The notes under the pieces are model-generated. The model was not told the DNA's origin. It searched no databases and saw nothing but the letters and a program-made list of their open reading frames with translations. Positions 53-23,610 of a stretch of 64,000 bases of DNA are shown one piece after another. The stretch is from an uncultured Bacteroidota bacterium (GTDB lineage: Bacteria > Bacteroidota > Bacteroidia > UKL13-3), in assembly GCA_903850915.1 (NCBI GenBank), contig CAINMV010000015.1, positions 1-64,000 of the forward strand, read 5' to 3'. How positions within the stretch are numbered: position 1 is the stretch's first letter; each line of letters opens with the position of its first letter. The translations under genes and the position numbers were made by a program.

Positions 53-84
53 GAAATTTTGTGAAAGAACCTGAAGGTTAAAAG

Positions 85-449
85 TGGAGCTGTCGGGAGT
101 CGAACCCGAGTCCGAAACAGGAACTCAAATGTTTTCTACATGCTTAGCTGTACTTGATTGTCGGAAGATGCCAGGCGTGCCGCGTACCGAACATCAACTT
201 AGGTTTTATATAATCATTCAGCTATTAAAACCCACTTCGCTAAAAGATACCCTACTGAGTGAACCCACTATACAAGCTCCCGTAAGGCAGAAGAACTTAG
301 TGAGTGCGGGCGGGTTAATCTATCCAGATTAAGCGGCCAATGCGTAGTTGTTGCCAACTAAAAGTTGAATGTATTGATTAAAGAGAACGCAAACAAATCT
401 CTGCATGCTTACACCTGCGCTACACTGCCCGTCAAAACCGGTCAGCCCC
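85..449 (-). ncRNA. ssrA: tmRNA (transfer-messenger RNA)
   Basis: tmRNA rescues ribosomes stalled on broken mRNAs and adds a degradation tag. On the minus strand the 5' end (449) reads GGGGCTG and pairs with CAGCTCC near the 3' end; the encoded CCA ends at 85. The T-arm (TCGGGAGTCGAACCCGA on minus) is at about 93-109, and the 5' region has the tRNA-like GGTTTTGACGGG. The mRNA-like part encodes the tag: after TAGTT, the codons at 355-329 read GNNYALAA and then TAA. The hydrophobic LAA end is the usual protease signal. Length (365 nt) and one-piece organisation are typical. The tag is one residue shorter than the G-E-NNYALAA form I know from related bacteria (see findings). The boundaries follow from acceptor-stem pairing, so they should be accurate to a base or two. 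Confidence 0.96.
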
Positions 450-2582: not shown

Positions 2583-3701
2583 CTAGGTAGTTTTTTTGTA
2601 ATTAAGAATAGCCCAAGTATTTAGCACAAGGGCAAACAACATAACTTTGATTAAATGTGGCAAAATATCGCGAAGGCGAGAACCTTTGAGTATTACCATA
2701 CGCATTACCTCTATAAAATAAGTGGCAGGATTAAATTTGGCAATCACCTGTGCCCAACTTGGCATGGCATCAATAGAAGTGAAAAGTCCGCCCATAAGGA
2801 TAAAAAGCATCATAAAGAAAAACATAATAAACATGGCCTGCTGCTGTGTTTCGCAATAGGTGGAGATGAGCAATCCGAAACCCAAAATTGCAAACAAATA
2901 CACCCAAATAAAAACATACAATACGCTCAAATTACCTAACGGAACGATACCATAAATAAGCCACGAAATGAACAAACCAATAGTGAATACGACGTTACCT
3001 AATATCCAAAATGGAATAAGCTTGCCTAATACAAAATGATACTTCTTTATGGGTGTAACATTAATCTGCTCTATGGTACCTACTTCTTTTTCTTTTACAA
3101 TGTTTAAGGCAGATAAAAATCCACCAATCATGGTAACCAAAATGGCTAATATCCCTGGCACCATAAACACTTTATAATTCATATAGGCATTAAACCAATT
3201 TGAGGCTGTTATCTCAATAGTTGGCGACGGATTTAACTTTGTATTGCCGATTAATTTCAAGCGCAAATCAGCATTAAAGTTGCGCAATATTCCAGCCAAA
3301 TAGGCTCCCCCAAGGTTGGCTTTGGTACCATTAATGGCGTTTACAGCAATAAAAACATGCTGCTTATTCTCACGTATTAAGTTACGCTCAAAATTTTGCG
3401 GTATCTCTAAAATAAGATCAGCCTTATCGGATTCGATGTATTGAAATGCTTCGTGAAAGGAATTATCATATCCAGATAATTTGAAGTAACCAGAAGAAGT
3501 AATTTTGGTGATTAATTGCTGAGAATAGGTAGAATGATCTTGATCGATTATGGCAAGATTAATATTCTTCACTTCATAGTCGGCAGCCATAGGCAGTATA
3601 ATAAGCTGCATCACTGGCATAACCATAATTAGCGCTAAGATGGATTTATTTCTAAATATCTGGCTAAACTCTTTGAGTAACAAAAATCGTAATATTCTCA
3701 T
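2583..3701 (-). CDS. ABC-2 type permease (distal)
   Basis: Inner-membrane subunit of an ABC exporter, 372 residues. It has one N-terminal membrane helix (about 20-40), a large extracytoplasmic domain (about 45-175), then five hydrophobic helices, which is the usual ABC-2/YhhJ-YbhR topology. The segment KEKEVGTIEQINVTPIK before the second helix is the coupling-helix region typical of this family (compare KEKELGTMEILLVSPF in the adjacent permease). The start codon overlaps the stop of the upstream permease by 4 bp, implying translational coupling. It is last in a seven-gene minus-strand operon (TetR, TolC, HlyD, two ATPases, two permeases) resembling the E. coli YbhGFSR tripartite efflux system. 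Its substrate is probably an amphipathic drug or cation, by analogy only. Confidence 0.88.
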   Translation of the reverse strand: MRILRFLLLKEFSQIFRNKSILALIMVMPVMQLIILPMAADYEVKNINLAIIDQDHSTYSQQLITKITSSGYFKLSGYDNSFHEAFQYIESDKADLILEIPQNFERNLIRENKQHVFIAVNAINGTKANLGGAYLAGILRNFNADLRLKLIGNTKLNPSPTIEITASNWFNAYMNYKVFMVPGILAILVTMIGGFLSALNIVKEKEVGTIEQINVTPIKKYHFVLGKLIPFWILGNVVFTIGLFISWLIYGIVPLGNLSVLYVFIWVYLFAILGFGLLISTYCETQQQAMFIMFFFMMLFILMGGLFTSIDAMPSWAQVIAKFNPATYFIEVMRMVILKGSRLRDILPHLIKVMLFALVLNTWAILNYKKTT

Positions 3702-4804
3702 GCCAAACGAATTTTAAAATTTTTCCAACTTAAACCTAATAGTAAAAGGGTCATGCCAACCAGCACTAGAGTTGGTTTCCAAATAGCTGCAAAACCTACT
3801 CCTTTAATCATAATTGATTTTACAATAATATAAAACCATTTGGCGGGCACAATATTTGAAATGACTTGTAACGGCATAGGCATATTCTCGATAGGGAACA
3901 TAAATCCTGAAAATAATACCGTTGGCAACATCATACCCATAAGCGAAATTAACATGGCTACTTGCTGTGAGTTGGTGCGTATGGAAATAAAAATACCTAA
4001 GGTGAGGTTGGTAATAATAAAGAGTGTGCTCTCTGCAAAAAGCAAGGCAATGCTTCCATTAATAGGCAAGTCGAGAACAAAAACGCTTAACAATAAAATA
4101 GAAATGACGTTAATTAACGATAAAAATAAATACGGAACGGCTTTTGAAATAATAATTAGCAACGGCCTAAAAGGCGATACCAAAAGTATCTCCATGGTAC
4201 CCAACTCTTTTTCGCGCACAATAGAAATAGAGGTCATCATAACGCATACCAACATCAATACCAACGCCATTACGCCAGGCACAAAATTTGGAGCGCCTTT
4301 AAGCTGCGGATTGTAGAGCATTCTTATCTCGGGCACGATAGCATATGGAATTGCATTGGCTTCATTCAACTGCACCTGTTGATCTTGAATAATACTACTC
4401 ACATAATTACTCAGCATATTCGCTGTATTGGGGTCAGAAGCATCGGCAATAATTTGAACTTGCGCCCGATTGATGTGCATGAGATTATCGGTAAAATGCG
4501 CTGGAAAAATTACGGCCAACCTTATCTTTCCTTCTTTAAAAGCAGCCTCTATTTGCTCCGGATCCATCACTGCCTTTTCTATTTCAAAATATCGGCTCGC
4601 TTCTATTCGATTTATAATTTGCTGAGAAATTAGGTCTTTCGACTGATCGACAACCACAAGCTTTGCATTTTTCACCTCGTTGGTTAACGCAAAACCAAAA
4701 ATTAAAATCTGCACCACAGGCATACCAAATAAAATAAACAATGTTTTTCTATCGCGCAAAACGTGGGCAAATTCTTTGGTGACAAAAGCAAAAAACTGTT
4801 TCAT
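3698..4804 (-). CDS. ABC-2 type permease (proximal)
   Basis: Second ABC-2 permease of the efflux operon, 368 residues. It has the same architecture as its downstream paralogue: a first helix at about 23-43 (FILFGMPVVQILIFGFAL), a periplasmic domain to about residue 170, and five C-terminal helices. The coupling motif KELGTMEILLVSPFR precedes the second helix. The two permeases most likely form a heterodimer, matching the two distinct ATPases encoded upstream. The gene starts 9 bp after the stop of the second ATPase gene and overlaps the next permease by 4 bp. Homology to YbhS/YbhR or YhhJ-type subunits is by architecture and motifs. Confidence 0.88.
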   Translation of the reverse strand: MKQFFAFVTKEFAHVLRDRKTLFILFGMPVVQILIFGFALTNEVKNAKLVVVDQSKDLISQQIINRIEASRYFEIEKAVMDPEQIEAAFKEGKIRLAVIFPAHFTDNLMHINRAQVQIIADASDPNTANMLSNYVSSIIQDQQVQLNEANAIPYAIVPEIRMLYNPQLKGAPNFVPGVMALVLMLVCVMMTSISIVREKELGTMEILLVSPFRPLLIIISKAVPYLFLSLINVISILLLSVFVLDLPINGSIALLFAESTLFIITNLTLGIFISIRTNSQQVAMLISLMGMMLPTVLFSGFMFPIENMPMPLQVISNIVPAKWFYIIVKSIMIKGVGFAAIWKPTLVLVGMTLLLLGLSWKNFKIRLA

Positions 4805-4813
4805 GGTATTGAG

Positions 4814-5554
4814 TTATTCTTTACGTTTGGCGCCCCTCGCGAGTTGATAAAAAACATCGTCCATAGAATTGGTATTGAAGACCTTCTTCAAATTTGTTGG
4901 ACTATCTAAGGCCTCTATTTTCCCATCCACCATGATACAAATACGATTGCAATATTCGGCCTCATCCATATAATGCGTTGTAACAAAAATTGTTATTCCT
5001 TTATCGGAAGCTTTATAAATTAAGTCCCAGAACTGCCTACGTGTTAATGGATCTACTCCTCCTGTGGGTTCATCCAAAAAAACAATTTTAGGCTCATGAA
5101 TAATGGCAACGGAAAAGGAAAGTTTCTGTTTCCAACCCAAGGGTAAGGAACCAACAAGCTTTTTGGCTTCCTTATCTAATCCTAACTCTGTAACCAAAGC
5201 TTCACTTTTACTTTTTAACTGAGCGTTGCTTAAGCCATATATACCTCCAAAAAACCGAATATTTTCTAAGACGGTTAAATCTTCATACAAAGAAAATTTC
5301 TGGCTCATATAGCCAATGTTCTTTTTTATTTCTTCAGTTTTTTTGTAGATGTCGAAACCAGCTATGGTAGCTTTTCCACTTGAGGGTAATGATAAACCAC
5401 ATAACATACGCATAGCCGTTGTTTTACCGGCACCATTCGCGCCTAAAAATCCAAAAATCTCGCCTTTTGTAACATCAAAAGTAATTTCATTGGTGGCAAT
5501 AAAATCTCCAAACCGCTTGGTTAGTTTTTCCGTTTGAATTACAACTTCTTTCAT
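4814..5554 (-). CDS. ABC transporter ATPase with atypical signature
   Basis: Cytoplasmic ATPase subunit, 246 residues, of the tripartite efflux pump. Walker A is GANGAGKTT at 38-46, Walker B VFLDEP at 158-163, D-loop GGVDP, and the switch histidine is H194 in VTTHYMDEAE. The signature motif is not LSGGQ but LPLGWKQ at 137-143, so this subunit should form a weak or non-canonical composite site. The partner ATPase upstream has a good LSGGMKQ signature but lacks the switch histidine. The gene is separated by 1 bp from the upstream ATPase. In E. coli the two halves of YbhF or RbbA/YhiH are fused in one chain; here they are separate genes. The degenerate motif looks like a family feature rather than decay. 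Confidence 0.92.
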   Translation of the reverse strand: MKEVVIQTEKLTKRFGDFIATNEITFDVTKGEIFGFLGANGAGKTTAMRMLCGLSLPSSGKATIAGFDIYKKTEEIKKNIGYMSQKFSLYEDLTVLENIRFFGGIYGLSNAQLKSKSEALVTELGLDKEAKKLVGSLPLGWKQKLSFSVAIIHEPKIVFLDEPTGGVDPLTRRQFWDLIYKASDKGITIFVTTHYMDEAEYCNRICIMVDGKIEALDSPTNLKKVFNTNSMDDVFYQLARGAKRKE

Positions 5555-13901: not shown

Positions 13902-14966
13902 ATGAAAGATATATTAATAAGAAACATCCAAGCCATTTTCGAAGATCCTTCTATCGATGAACATGAAATTACAATTCGAGTTAAAAAATTAATTTACGAA
14001 AACGAAAATCATCAGGCGAATTTGGCGGCTTCCAAACGATTTGCAGTGCTACTACCTGAATTTTTAAAAAGCATGGAGAAGAGCGAAGAAAAGACCACAA
14101 TGTTTCCGTCTGGATTTAATCAGATGGACAATGAATTTGGAGGATTTGTTGGCGGCGAGTTGGCGATAATTGGCGCTAGGCCAGGCATGGGTAAAACACA
14201 ATTGATGGTAAATCTAGCACTTCAGATGGCCAAGTCAAAGCCGGTGCTTTATTGCAGTTGCGACCTATCGGAGTCTCTCTTATTAAGTCGTTTTATTGCC
14301 TCTCTCTCAAAAATTTCTATGCGCACCTTGTTGCAGAAAAAATTCCTACCCGAAGAGATAAAACAATTGCAAGAAGTAGAGAAGCAAGTTTTCACAAACG
14401 ACCTTTTCATCAACGCTGACATAACATCGATTGGTGATTTAAAAGCAGTATGCAAAAAACACATTGAAGAAGATGGCGTGCATGTTATTTTTGTGGATTA
14501 TCTGCAACTCTTAGGCACATCAAAATATAAAAATAACAGGGAGCAAGAAATTAGTATAATAAGCCGTGAACTTAAAAACATCGCCAAGGAATATAATGTA
14601 TGCATGATTGTAGCAAGTCAATTAAGTCGTGCCGTTGAAACCCGCACTATGTCGCGAAGGCCTATACTATCTGACTTACGTGATAGTGGCGCTATTGAAC
14701 AAGATGCCGACAAGGTAATCTTTCTATATCGTCCGGAATACTATGGCTTAACAACTTATGAAGATGGATCGCCATCGCATTGCATTGCTACTCTAATTAT
14801 TGCAAAAAACAGAAATGGCTCGCTTGGAGAGATGCAACTCGAACGCGATGAAAACTTCACATTCTTTAAGGAGATAATACCTGAGGATGTTAAATTCGAA
14901 ATATCCAGTGCGGCCACCATAACTTTTAGTCAAAAAATATCACCCCTCGACGATTTCGATTTTTAA
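13902..14966 (+). CDS. DnaB-helicase-like ATPase, truncated form, retron-adjacent
   Basis: A 354-residue RecA-fold ATPase matching the C-terminal motor of the replicative helicase DnaB. Walker A is GARPGMGKT (91-99), Walker B VIFVDYLQL (195-203), the sensor segment IVASQLSRAVETR (237-249), the family hallmark LSDLRDSGAIEQDADKV (256-272), and the arginine-finger segment KNRNGSLG (302-309). The normal N-terminal primase-binding domain is absent: only about 65 helical, unrelated-looking residues precede the motor. The usual catalytic Glu of SLEM appears replaced by Asp121 (SCDLSE). It ends 6 bp before the retron RNA and lies on the same strand as the reverse transcriptase, so co-transcription is likely. 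It is unlikely to be the housekeeping helicase; a role as retron effector or partner is inference. Confidence 0.85.
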   Translation: MKDILIRNIQAIFEDPSIDEHEITIRVKKLIYENENHQANLAASKRFAVLLPEFLKSMEKSEEKTTMFPSGFNQMDNEFGGFVGGELAIIGARPGMGKTQLMVNLALQMAKSKPVLYCSCDLSESLLLSRFIASLSKISMRTLLQKKFLPEEIKQLQEVEKQVFTNDLFINADITSIGDLKAVCKKHIEEDGVHVIFVDYLQLLGTSKYKNNREQEISIISRELKNIAKEYNVCMIVASQLSRAVETRTMSRRPILSDLRDSGAIEQDADKVIFLYRPEYYGLTTYEDGSPSHCIATLIIAKNRNGSLGEMQLERDENFTFFKEIIPEDVKFEISSAATITFSQKISPLDDFDF

Positions 14967-14972
14967 GTATAG

Positions 14973-15141
14973 ATGAGCCGTTGCATACAAATTATGAGGT
15001 CAAACATGACGACTTAAGGACTGTGTTCCTGCAGCCCATGTGAAGGTGAACGAAAAGGATCGTTGTCTGTTGACGCGCATCTCACTTCGTATCGCCTTGC
15101 ATCAACAGATTTAAGTTCAAAGATAATTAGCAACGGCTCAT
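14973..15141 (+). ncRNA. Retron msr-msd RNA
   Basis: Template/primer RNA for the adjacent reverse transcriptase. Its ends are a perfect 12-bp inverted repeat: ATGAGCCGTTGC at 14973-14984 (a1) and GCAACGGCTCAT at 15130-15141 (a2), the standard retron a1/a2 arrangement. Between them are short msr-type hairpins (AGGTC/GACTT at 14997-15015, AGGA/TCCT at 15017-15030, AACGA/TCGTT at 15049-15064) and a longer stem TCTGTTGA (15066-15073) with TCAACAGA (15102-15109) enclosing 28 nt, the likely msd stem. The RT start codon is 11 bp after a2. Size (169 nt) fits known retron RNAs. The branching guanosine cannot be fixed; G14983 at the end of a1 is one candidate. Exact transcript ends are unknown. Confidence 0.85.
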
Positions 15142-15152
15142 TTTTTAATTCG

Positions 15153-16268
15153 ATGAAAACAGCAAAAGAAATCCATACGCTAGCGCAATTAGAGCAACGA
15201 AATTTAGTTCGATACTTTAACACACCCGACAACAAACCCAATAAATATTTAGAAAAATACCCATTGCATGTGCGCAATGCCTTATATTTACTTACCCTTT
15301 CAAACCCATATAAATTATGCGTTTTCATGAAACGAAAACCACAAGTGTTGCAGCATTTGTTTAATAACCCTGAATATAAAGAATATACTATACCGAAGAA
15401 AAAAGGAGGTGAGCGCTTAATCTGCGAACCGAATAAACAACTAAAATTAGCACAAAAAAGATTGGGGTATTTTCTACAAGCCTATTATCTTTTAATTAAG
15501 CCAGAGGAAGTGCATGGATTTGTTGTAAATCCACATTACTTGGGCACTTATTGCAATATTGCTGAAAACGCAAGGCCACATCTTGGAAAACAAAAGGTAC
15601 TTAATATCGACCTCAAAGATTTCTTTCCGAGTATCACTGCGCAAAGGGTGCAGCAACTTTTTCGATCTTTTATTTTTAACTATAATGAAGAAGTTGCTAC
15701 CGCACTCGCTTTGCTTACAACCTATGAAGGGCGGCTTCCTATTGGTGCACCAACTTCACCAATAATATCCAATTTTATATGTTTACCTTTAGACCGCGAT
15801 CTTAAAATATACTGTCAAGAAAAAGGACTTACTTACACACGTTATGCTGATGATTTAACATTCTCATCAAATGAATTAATTACAAAAGAAGATATCAACT
15901 CCATCAATTCTATTATTAAAAAAAATCACTTTGAAATAAACCACAAAAAGTTACGTCTTCAAAGTGCGCACCAAAGGCAAACAGTAACAGGCTTAACAGT
16001 CAATAAAATACTCAACGTTGATCGCAATTTATTAAAGCATATACGTGCTATGCTATTCGATCTAAATAAAAACGGTCTTTCTGATGCTGTGAAAAACCAT
16101 TATAAATTTAGCTTTGATCCAGACAAAAAACAATCAGACCTCTTTGTAAGTAGACTTCGAGGCTATATAAATTTTGTAGGTCAGATTAAAGGTAAACAAG
16201 ACCCCCATTACATAAAATTCAAGACAGCATTTAATAGCTGCTTACCGATTAAAAACACTTCAAGTTAA
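15153..16268 (+). CDS. Retron-type reverse transcriptase
   Basis: A 371-residue reverse transcriptase that should copy the adjacent RNA into branched msDNA. Palm motifs are visible: first catalytic Asp153 in LNIDLKDFFPSI, GAPTSPIISNF, and YADD at 231-234. The two retron-specific marks are also present: VHGF at 120-123 (the NxxH-type region X) and VTG at 278-280 (region Y). An in-frame ATG at 15063 would run through the msd and a2, so ATG 15153 (MKTAKEIHTL), 11 bp after a2, is chosen. No fused effector domain is evident; about 60 residues precede the RT core and about 75 follow VTG. Retrons are anti-phage systems whose msDNA-RT complex restrains an effector, so the adjacent DnaB-like ATPase is the prime candidate partner. 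Confidence 0.95.
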   Translation: MKTAKEIHTLAQLEQRNLVRYFNTPDNKPNKYLEKYPLHVRNALYLLTLSNPYKLCVFMKRKPQVLQHLFNNPEYKEYTIPKKKGGERLICEPNKQLKLAQKRLGYFLQAYYLLIKPEEVHGFVVNPHYLGTYCNIAENARPHLGKQKVLNIDLKDFFPSITAQRVQQLFRSFIFNYNEEVATALALLTTYEGRLPIGAPTSPIISNFICLPLDRDLKIYCQEKGLTYTRYADDLTFSSNELITKEDINSINSIIKKNHFEINHKKLRLQSAHQRQTVTGLTVNKILNVDRNLLKHIRAMLFDLNKNGLSDAVKNHYKFSFDPDKKQSDLFVSRLRGYINFVGQIKGKQDPHYIKFKTAFNSCLPIKNTSS

Positions 16269-20939: not shown

Positions 20940-21950
20940 ATGCCACTAAACAAAGAAGCTCAAATTCGCTACCTTACCATAGATGCGTGTCTGTGCGATA
21001 AAAGAAAGCCATTTCCAAGCATGGCACTTTTAATTGCGGTAATCGAAGAGAAAATAGGGAAATCGTTTACAGTATCTACCATTCAAAAGGACTTAAAGGC
21101 ACTTAAAGAAGATGAGGCGTTAGGGTATTTAGCGCCTATTAAATTTAGTAAAAGCAAAAACGGATATTACTATAGCGACCCGAATTACACCCTTCGTTCG
21201 GTTCCTTTAAATAGCGCTGAAATTGAGTCGCTCCTAGCAGCAACAGATCTACTTCGAACCTTTAGTGGGGATCGTGTTGGTCATAATTTCAATACCGCAG
21301 TCGACAAAATATTGGCTTCTGTTCGAGAGAAATTCGACACCACTAGCGACAAGCGTGTTTTAATTCAGACCGAAAACCCGCCACGAATGCGAGGATGGGA
21401 ATATTTTGAATTGCTATTTCAAGCTGCGAAAGATAAAACTGTCGTTTCGTTTATCCATTATTCGTATTCAAAACGCGTATTTAATGCCATCGTATTGCAT
21501 CCCTATCTGCTTAAAGAATTTCAAAACCGTTGGTATATCGTAGGTTATTCCGAAAAACATCGAGCGATACGCAACTTTGGACTAGACCGTGTAATTGAGC
21601 CATTATTAATAAATAAAAAATTCAATACGCAGCTAAATTTCAATCCTGAAAGCTATTATAAGGATACTTTTGGCTTATACCCCATCGGTAAAAAAAAGGA
21701 ACAAATTCACTTTCGAGTTAGTCCTTTGATGGGTAATTACCTCCTCTCCCAACCTTTGCACGAAAGCCAAAGCGTTGTAAACCACTACGCTTATGGACAC
21801 CTGTTGCTTCAACTAGATATTATCCCAAGTGTCGAGCTTATCAATCAATTTGTGATGCTTAGTAATCATATAACTATAATAAAACCTCAGTGGGTAAGAA
21901 AGGAAGTCCAAGAACAATTAAAAACTAGTGCCATTAATGCGAAACATTAG
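20940..21950 (+). CDS. WYL-domain transcriptional regulator
   Basis: A 336-residue DNA-binding regulator. The N-terminus (1-70: KEAQIRYLTIDACLCDKRKPFP, then TVSTIQKDLKALKED) is a winged helix-turn-helix. The middle (about 140-220) is a WYL domain with KTVVSFIHYSYSKRVFNAIVLHPYLLKEFQNRWYIVGY, in which the conserved RWYIVGYS strand and the LHPYLL strand are clear, followed by a WCX-type C-terminal domain. WYL regulators sense nucleic-acid-like ligands and control DNA repair and phage-defence genes in several bacteria. Its 3' end overlaps the next small gene by 14 bp. A second WYL protein of a different subtype follows 600 bp on. Confidence 0.88.
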   Translation: MPLNKEAQIRYLTIDACLCDKRKPFPSMALLIAVIEEKIGKSFTVSTIQKDLKALKEDEALGYLAPIKFSKSKNGYYYSDPNYTLRSVPLNSAEIESLLAATDLLRTFSGDRVGHNFNTAVDKILASVREKFDTTSDKRVLIQTENPPRMRGWEYFELLFQAAKDKTVVSFIHYSYSKRVFNAIVLHPYLLKEFQNRWYIVGYSEKHRAIRNFGLDRVIEPLLINKKFNTQLNFNPESYYKDTFGLYPIGKKKEQIHFRVSPLMGNYLLSQPLHESQSVVNHYAYGHLLLQLDIIPSVELINQFVMLSNHITIIKPQWVRKEVQEQLKTSAINAKH

Positions 21951-22527: not shown

Positions 22528-23610
22528 ATGGAAACTTCATCAAACGAAAAAGAAATTCGCATCCGTTTCATCCATGAGTTCCTTATAAAAGGAGGTGGTA
22601 ACTTCGTTAAAATGCTTAATTATGTAAACGAAAAATCGCAGGAAGCCGGCATTGGTGAAATTAAAGAAAGAATGCTTCGCGAGCACCTCGCCGATTTGCG
22701 CAGAGGCAATTTCACACACCTAGAAGTAAATCATGAACGTGATAAAAATGGACATCTGTTTGATATCGTCTTTGATAAATTAATTTATACATACAAAGAG
22801 AGTTCACCATTACCTTCTTTTGGAGACTTAGATGAGGAAGAACGAATATCGTTACCCTTTTTATTAGGAATACTTAGCCCTTATGCTAGCATACCTGCTG
22901 TTTCTAAAGTACTCGAAGATATTAAACAACGCTTTAAATTAGACCAACTTGAATTAAGTTCTGCAAAAGCGGTTGTAGTACATAAGCCACTTCTAAAAGA
23001 AGAAAAAAAGGTGGTTGAACTTACAATAAAAATACTTGGCCATATTAAAAGAGAAGAATGTATTGAGTTTGACTATCTAAGGGTAGATACACTCGCTCCA
23101 AAAAAGAATTCTAACATTCGAAAGGTGATGCCGCTGCAGATTCGGATTTACGAGAATATATATTACCTCACGGCAGTAACCATAGAAAAAGAGGCGAAAT
23201 TAGCCAACTACCGCATCGATAAGATTGATCGCCTCAAAGTGGATGTTTTATGCGAGAATGACACGGATACTATAGTTCATTTTAATTATAAAAAATATCA
23301 GAAGGAATATAATTTGAGCAAACGCTTTGAAAATAGTATTGGCATCTGGATTCACGACAAAGATGATCCTATTGAAACCGTACGAATTTGTTTCTGGGGA
23401 TGGGCTGCCTCTTACGTTCAATCGCTTCCACTGCATAAATCACAGAAAATAAAGCAAGAAGATATTGATCACACAAACAATACGTTAATTGCCGAAATTA
23501 GCATTCAGCTAGAACCACGTGCCAAGGGTAAAAACACCGCTATCGAACGATCCAAGGAACTTTCATTTCTTTTGGGGCGATTTAGTGGCTTCTATAAATT
23601 ACTAACGTAA
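22528..23610 (+). CDS. Second WYL-domain regulator
   Basis: A 360-residue DNA-binding regulator of a different subtype from the gene at 20940. The N-terminal helix-turn-helix (about 5-65) is followed by a linker and a WYL domain (about 170-240) with LGHIKREECIEFDYLRVD and VMPLQIRIYENIYYLTAVT, in place of the canonical W-Y-L the strand reads IYYLTAV. The C-terminal domain contains IWIHDKDDPIETVRICFWGW. Start ATG 22528 (METSSNEKEIR) is chosen because the promoter box lies just before it; an in-frame ATG at 22495 would be upstream of the promoter. It probably regulates itself or the repeat protein 32 bp downstream. Confidence 0.85.
   Translation: METSSNEKEIRIRFIHEFLIKGGGNFVKMLNYVNEKSQEAGIGEIKERMLREHLADLRRGNFTHLEVNHERDKNGHLFDIVFDKLIYTYKESSPLPSFGDLDEEERISLPFLLGILSPYASIPAVSKVLEDIKQRFKLDQLELSSAKAVVVHKPLLKEEKKVVELTIKILGHIKREECIEFDYLRVDTLAPKKNSNIRKVMPLQIRIYENIYYLTAVTIEKEAKLANYRIDKIDRLKVDVLCENDTDTIVHFNYKKYQKEYNLSKRFENSIGIWIHDKDDPIETVRICFWGWAASYVQSLPLHKSQKIKQEDIDHTNNTLIAEISIQLEPRAKGKNTAIERSKELSFLLGRFSGFYKLLT

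Follow-up and report, generated by a model that had tools for sequence, protein, structure and literature searches.

A reverse transcriptase (RT) gene preceded by a structured RNA invites comparison with the retrons, and the locus described here raises the question of what such a pair is doing directly behind a gene of the DnaB helicase family. The locus lies in a 64,000-nucleotide stretch of DNA from an uncultured Bacteroidota bacterium, referred to throughout as the window. An earlier note, made from the letters alone, had read the intergenic segment as a retron RNA with an unusual multi-hairpin layout and had suggested that it might define a class of its own. The analysis presented here indicates that the segment, the RT and the DnaB-like gene probably constitute a three-part retron of a type not yet described, in which the RT would prime at a conserved guanosine and copy the RNA, with the DnaB-like protein proposed as effector. 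In the following sections we detail the RNA, the RT, the relatives of the locus and the partner protein, and weigh the readings that compete with this one.

Layout of the Locus

The DnaB-like gene, the non-coding RNA (ncRNA) and the RT gene follow one another in that order on one strand (Table 1). The RNA begins 4 nt past the stop codon of the DnaB-like gene (14966) and stops 9–11 nt short of the start codon of the RT gene (15153), and gaps this narrow lead us to treat the three as one unit. A scan of the 64-kb window at Rfam gathering thresholds returned a tmRNA alone and no retron family; the tmRNA gene (82–449, minus strand) has no relation to the retron. An empty-site comparison within the genus yielded no clean site, as the flanking VWA gene is missing from all four of the four congeners.

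Table 1. Features of the retron locus, in window coordinates.
Feature	Position	Strand	Evidence or remark
DnaB_C-family gene, 354 aa, proposed effector/partner	13902–14966	+	Pfam DnaB_C, E 2e-74
Retron ncRNA (msr-msd), including U-run 3' of a2	14971–15144	+	R1 match 14971–15143; covariation
a1 arm of terminal stem	14973–14984	+	Pairs with 15130–15141; covarying helix 1
Inner helix P2, 5' side, AAUUAU	14990–14995	+	Pairs with 15123–15128
Predicted branching guanosine, 2',5' link to msDNA	14996	+	Conserved G directly 3' of P2
msr hairpin 1, GUC..GAC type	about 14998–15014	+	Covarying helix 3
msr hairpin 2, GACUGUGUUCCUGCAGCC; family consensus GGUUGUGUUCCUGCAACC	15019–15036	+	Covarying helix 4
msd stem-loop, 8-bp stem and 28-nt top	15066–15109	+	DNA strand folds into same hairpin
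Predicted start of template, A (copied as dT1)	15121	+	A in 20/20 rows
Inner helix P2, 3' side, AUAAUU	15123–15128	+	Covariation
a2 arm of terminal stem	15130–15141	+	Pairs with a1; covariation
Retron reverse transcriptase, 371 aa, unfused	15153–16268	+	RVT_1, E 3e-20

A Conserved and Covarying RNA

The terminal inverted repeat reported in the earlier note is present exactly, as 12 perfect pairs between ATGAGCCGTTGC (14973–14984) and GCAACGGCTCAT (15130–15141), and can be lengthened by one G-U and one A-U pair. A lone 12-bp repeat at such spacing is unremarkable somewhere in 64 kb, and it is conservation across homologues that lifts this one above chance. The msd-type stem likewise stands as had been claimed, with 8-bp arms TCTGTTGA (15066–15073) and TCAACAGA (15102–15109) enclosing a 28-nt top (15074–15101), and the fold of the window RNA beats 200 of 200 dinucleotide shuffles (z −4.2).

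Alignment of 14 homologous RNAs by MAFFT, which is blind to structure, supports four helices: a1/a2, P2, the GUC/GAC hairpin and a GGUUGUG..GCAACC hairpin. Over 25 pairs, 96% of the cells in this alignment are paired, compared with 88% when shuffled and 33–56% when one side is slid, and compensatory (two-sided) cells number 26, where shuffles give 5.3±2.1 and sliding never more than 4. Two-sided changes occur at 12 pairs overall; the a1/a2 helix, itself 96% paired over the 14 homologues, contributes them in 6 of 10 pairs. A set of 20 sequences aligned to a covariance model, and thus leaning towards the model structure, carries two-sided changes in 35 of 40 pairs (138 versus 35 cells), P2 being 98% paired with such changes in 5 of its 6 pairs. 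The msd stem is the weakest helix (79% paired). The earlier note had also counted at least three short hairpins in the first half; the two msr hairpins are conserved, and no third conserved msr hairpin was found among the homologues.

The covariance model, R1, was trained on 8 sequences and matches the RNA at 12 DnaB-type loci on which it was not trained (E ≤ 0.002). Searched against 87 whole genomes, it finds matches in exactly the 5 that hold the RT. It also matches one viral contig, L096, where P2 reads ACCAU/AUGGU and so lends this helix independent support. Against the RNAs of Eco2 and of the other retron RTs tested, types XI and XII included, R1 gave no match. A simple pattern search places the GGUUGUG..GCAACC-type hairpin at 29 of 30 DnaB-type loci, and the segments UUAUG and AGAUAA are invariant. 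The ncRNA structure is under selection as RNA, and the covariance check over homologous loci that the earlier note had called for found the a1/a2 pairing and the hairpins conserved. This is a real retron template: the covarying RNA precedes an RT bearing the NAxxH, YADD and VTG signatures, and the note's reading as a retron RNA is supported.

A run of U residues lies 3' of a2 in most homologues (window 15138–15147), and together with the GC-rich a1/a2 stem it could mark a transcript end or an attenuation point before the RT gene. That the terminal stem and U-run are chiefly an intrinsic terminator or a leader for RT expression is nevertheless extremely unlikely, for the inner hairpins, the invariant UUAUG and AGAUAA and their covariation would then go unexplained, although termination or leader activity may be a second role of the stem.

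At the top of the msd, the tip CACUNCGYUC recurs in 7 of 20 RNAs (L002, L022–L025, L028 and L045) against 0.02 expected, a count inflated by related copies. It is kept while the stems below it differ, and possibly marks a site of recognition on the msDNA; the tip of the window's own RNA is CACUUCGUAU.

Predicted Branch Site and the Retron-Eco2 Plan

The earlier note had seen no UAGC-like motif after a1 and had left the branching guanosine unclear, with G14983 offered as one choice. G14983 is paired inside a1 and is rejected as a poor candidate, and a near-invariant G at 14996 stands instead at the end of P2, opposite G15122. This G is present in 14 of 14 homologues and in 18 of 20 rows of the larger alignment, where the two non-G rows (L015 and L017) seem misaligned and read UUGAUG by eye. 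The facing strand reads AG, with G15122 in 19 of the 20 rows and the preceding A in all of them. The motif at the predicted branch is UUAUGA rather than the commoner TAGC; the retron primer G may lie inside or right after the stem, and non-TAGC motifs occur (PMC6868368). In Retron-Eco2 (Ec67, type I-C), rG15 follows the stem and is linked to dT1 (PMC12405507), and the Eco2 sequence gives A as the template base. We predict G14996 and A15121 because a conserved G after P2 faces an A in the same geometry as in Eco2.

The likeness to Eco2, the closest solved relative of the RT, extends beyond the branch site to the msr hairpin (GGUUGUG..GCAACC here; the Eco2 RNA motif is GGUUGUGAAUCGCAACC) and to an msd that is a single long hairpin. 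The two differ in that Eco2 has one msr stem-loop whereas the window RNA has an extra small hairpin, and in that the a1/a2 stem of Eco2 is uninterrupted whereas an internal loop separates a1/a2 from P2 here. The suggestion of a distinct RNA class therefore holds in part: the RNAs form a definable family, with R1 matching DnaB-type loci only, but their core plan is that of Eco2.

A Retron Reverse Transcriptase without a Fused Effector

The RT carries NAxxH (residues 139–143), YADD (231–234) and VTG (278–280), all invariant in 24 homologues; the first and last are the region X and region Y signatures by which retron RTs have been defined (PMC6868368). Among solved structures it is closest to the Eco2 RT (E 4e-38), Drt2 following at only 2e-6. 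Other RT-ncRNA defence systems are known (PMC12483538, PMC12489045), and the RNA could in principle belong to a defence-associated RT (DRT) that uses a protein primer or yields long or repetitive cDNA instead of copying a 2',5'-primed template; the retron signatures, the structural match and an RNA built on the Eco2 plan make this very improbable.

Among PADLOC models, the RT is closest to RT_XI, I-C and XII, and aligns to their RT part alone. These matches, together with the Eco2-like msr hairpin, would fit an ordinary member of type XI, I-C or XII that has lost its fused effector and sits beside a dnaB by accident. To this we give almost no credence: the RT scores 329 bits where PADLOC members of the three types reach about 450 and more, it passes none of the NCBIfam retron cut-offs, it belongs to a clade of its own, and the DnaB link recurs at 29 loci in at least nine families with differing flanks. 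No effector domain is fused to the C-terminus of the RT of the kind seen in these types, namely the Toprim effector of Eco2 and the protease or TIR domain of types XI (RT-protease) and XII (RT-TIR); the window RT instead has a separate DnaB-like partner. Types XI and XII also occupy a separate RT branch, and their RNAs are missed by R1, although one XII-like RT (L038) likewise has an upstream hairpin, UUGUUGUUGAUACUGCAACAA.

Distribution and Linkage

Among roughly 950 Bacteroidota genomes and further collections searched, 29 loci, counting that of the window, place this RT behind a DnaB-family gene, and the viral contig L096 adds another. The loci span nine coded families and a Chitinophagaceae metagenome-assembled genome. 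Scans with a single RT sequence had returned nothing in viral contigs and one relative in genome contigs, and it was the whole-genome searches that succeeded. A DnaB-family gene lies directly upstream in 28 of 28 rows of the RT clade with enough upstream sequence, and the clade loci without a visible DnaB (L005, L008 and L033) run into the end of their contigs. These 3 truncated rows and the 28 DnaB rows together make up a single clade of the RT tree (support 96/91), and none of 14 other retron RTs has an upstream DnaB gene. Flanks vary between loci, and no gene besides the cassette is conserved. RNA, RT and DnaB-like gene are inherited together. The RT of the window clusters with those of other families and away from the majority from its own, a placement suggestive of horizontal transfer.

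On L096, a 43.8-kb IMG/VR contig, the DnaB-RNA-RT cassette occupies 2904–4891, and the Walker A Lys of its DnaB-like protein is replaced by Arg; the arrangement points to a (pro)phage carrier or else to a mislabelled island. An adjoining gene (1034–2104) resembles by eye the WYL-domain regulators that the window encodes at 20940–21950 and 22528–23610, ~5 kb downstream of the retron. At the L033 contig end (1–400), a same-clade retron RT on a long branch sits behind CRISPR-like repeats (~37 nt), with no DnaB gene and no RNA visible there.

A DnaB Paralogue as Partner

The partner protein shares with replicative DnaB its DnaB_C domain, its fold, Walker A and B motifs and the SQLSR region. An AlphaFold model (pLDDT 85.7), confident except in the C-terminal tail, retrieves DnaB by Foldseek (E 1.5e-28). 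It is nonetheless distinct from the replicative protein, scoring 259.8 bits where the NCBIfam DnaB equivalog requires 385, and a Pfam search detected no DnaB N-terminal domain (PF00772), whereas the host DnaB, L048, passes the cut-off and has that domain. The short subgroup to which the window's protein belongs (about 340–370 aa) is without the N-terminal domain, and a distant subgroup of about 440–500 aa retains a recognisable, weak one, which makes loss the likely direction. In an unrooted tree, retron and host DnaB proteins split at 100/100, and a recent copy of the local dnaB is rejected on this basis. The hosts have, or should have, their own full-length DnaB: a separate gene was present in 13 of 15 genomes checked and in the window's own genome.

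The active-site residues of the retron copies present a mixed picture. Walker A Lys is kept in 26 of 28, Walker B Asp in 27 and the Lys that follows in all 28. The catalytic Glu, a residue whose role is established for DnaB and T7 gp4, is taken to be the position aligned with SLEMS of host DnaB; it is Glu in 14 of 14 hosts but in only 6 of 28 retron copies, a column in which some divergent rows are possibly misaligned, and the window has Asp there. All 14 hosts retain the arginine finger, as do 14 of 28 retron copies, the window's among them. With Asp and the Arg finger, the window's protein may still hydrolyse ATP, and the overall pattern suggests that ATP binding and ring formation are needed while a fast motor is not.

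The protein ends in AATITFSQKISPLDDFDF (14915–14966) and the host DnaB (L048, 889–2421) in TITFSSKINEMDDEPF. An acidic stretch with a closing F, in many retron copies of the form ..PF, is found in 14 of 14 host DnaBs and in most short-subgroup retron copies, and resembles the C-terminal tip of SSB. Since host DnaB proteins have the same tail, the idea that it arose by mimicking SSB is weakened. In one genome (G843, locus L046) the DnaB-like gene has an in-frame TAG after GAI and before QDADK; this copy is evidently broken or misread, and the adjoining RT and RNA look intact.

PADLOC retron accessory models gave no match to the DnaB-like protein or six homologues. The MADS component mad8 matches it weakly (E 3e-4 to 1e-7), but over part of the P-loop domain alone, and the locus has no further MADS gene. 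The 13-type retron classification is not known to include a DnaB-partner type, as far as PADLOC reflects it, and the retron effectors described to date comprise nucleases, transferases, proteases and TIR, membrane and similar proteins. Neither PADLOC 2023 nor NCBIfam 2026 nor the open-access papers searched describe a retron with a DnaB paralogue as partner. It is the DnaB-family gene, which the earlier note did not mention, that makes the system new, and a retron type with such a partner is apparently undescribed.

A Proposed Mechanism

How these parts might work together can be outlined from homology and analogy. The RT would prime at the 2'-OH of the predicted branch G14996 and copy the msd backwards from A15121, giving an msDNA of very roughly 55–75 nt. 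By analogy with known retrons, RT-msDNA would probably both sense and restrain, and the effector could be the DnaB-like protein, an assignment we make tentatively. The DnaB-like protein would be an ATP-binding ring with a weakened motor, its N-terminal collar missing in the window's subgroup, and would be silent while bound to RT-msDNA. A phage that altered or displaced the msDNA would free it, and the freed protein would jam DNA replication in the manner of a dominant-negative DnaB, so that the infection aborts. Mutations that impair ATP turnover can make DnaB dominant-negative, and a replication poison is for this reason the simplest reading. The effector would then be a replicative helicase taken out of service, an old paralogue of DnaB stripped of the catalytic base and, in one branch, of the N-terminal collar as well, whose toxicity is kept in check by msDNA; this fuller account is possible, if doubtful. 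The acidic C-terminal tail, which is that of host DnaB itself, may serve to bring such a protein to the replisome.

The main rival reading keeps the same retron and assigns its partner another task. Here the DnaB-like protein is not a toxin but loads onto, unwinds or displays the msDNA, or senses replication forks with it, and the defence is carried out by some other process of the host. Rings of the DnaB family bind single-stranded DNA, the msDNA is such a strand, and the ATP-binding residues are retained, all of which would suit a handling role. We hold it to be rather unlikely, since the loci share no further conserved gene, so that no separate effector is visible, and since the co-encoded gene of characterised retrons is usually the effector (PMC12548924, PMC13405049).

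Implications

The compact Bacteroidota RT and RNA, for which a branch site is predicted and a covariance model is at hand, may be of use in DNA-production tools, and they offer an annotation route for systems that current classifiers leave unnamed. As retron cargo, a duplicate of the replication motor itself would be of a new kind, and it would link retron immunity directly to the replication fork.
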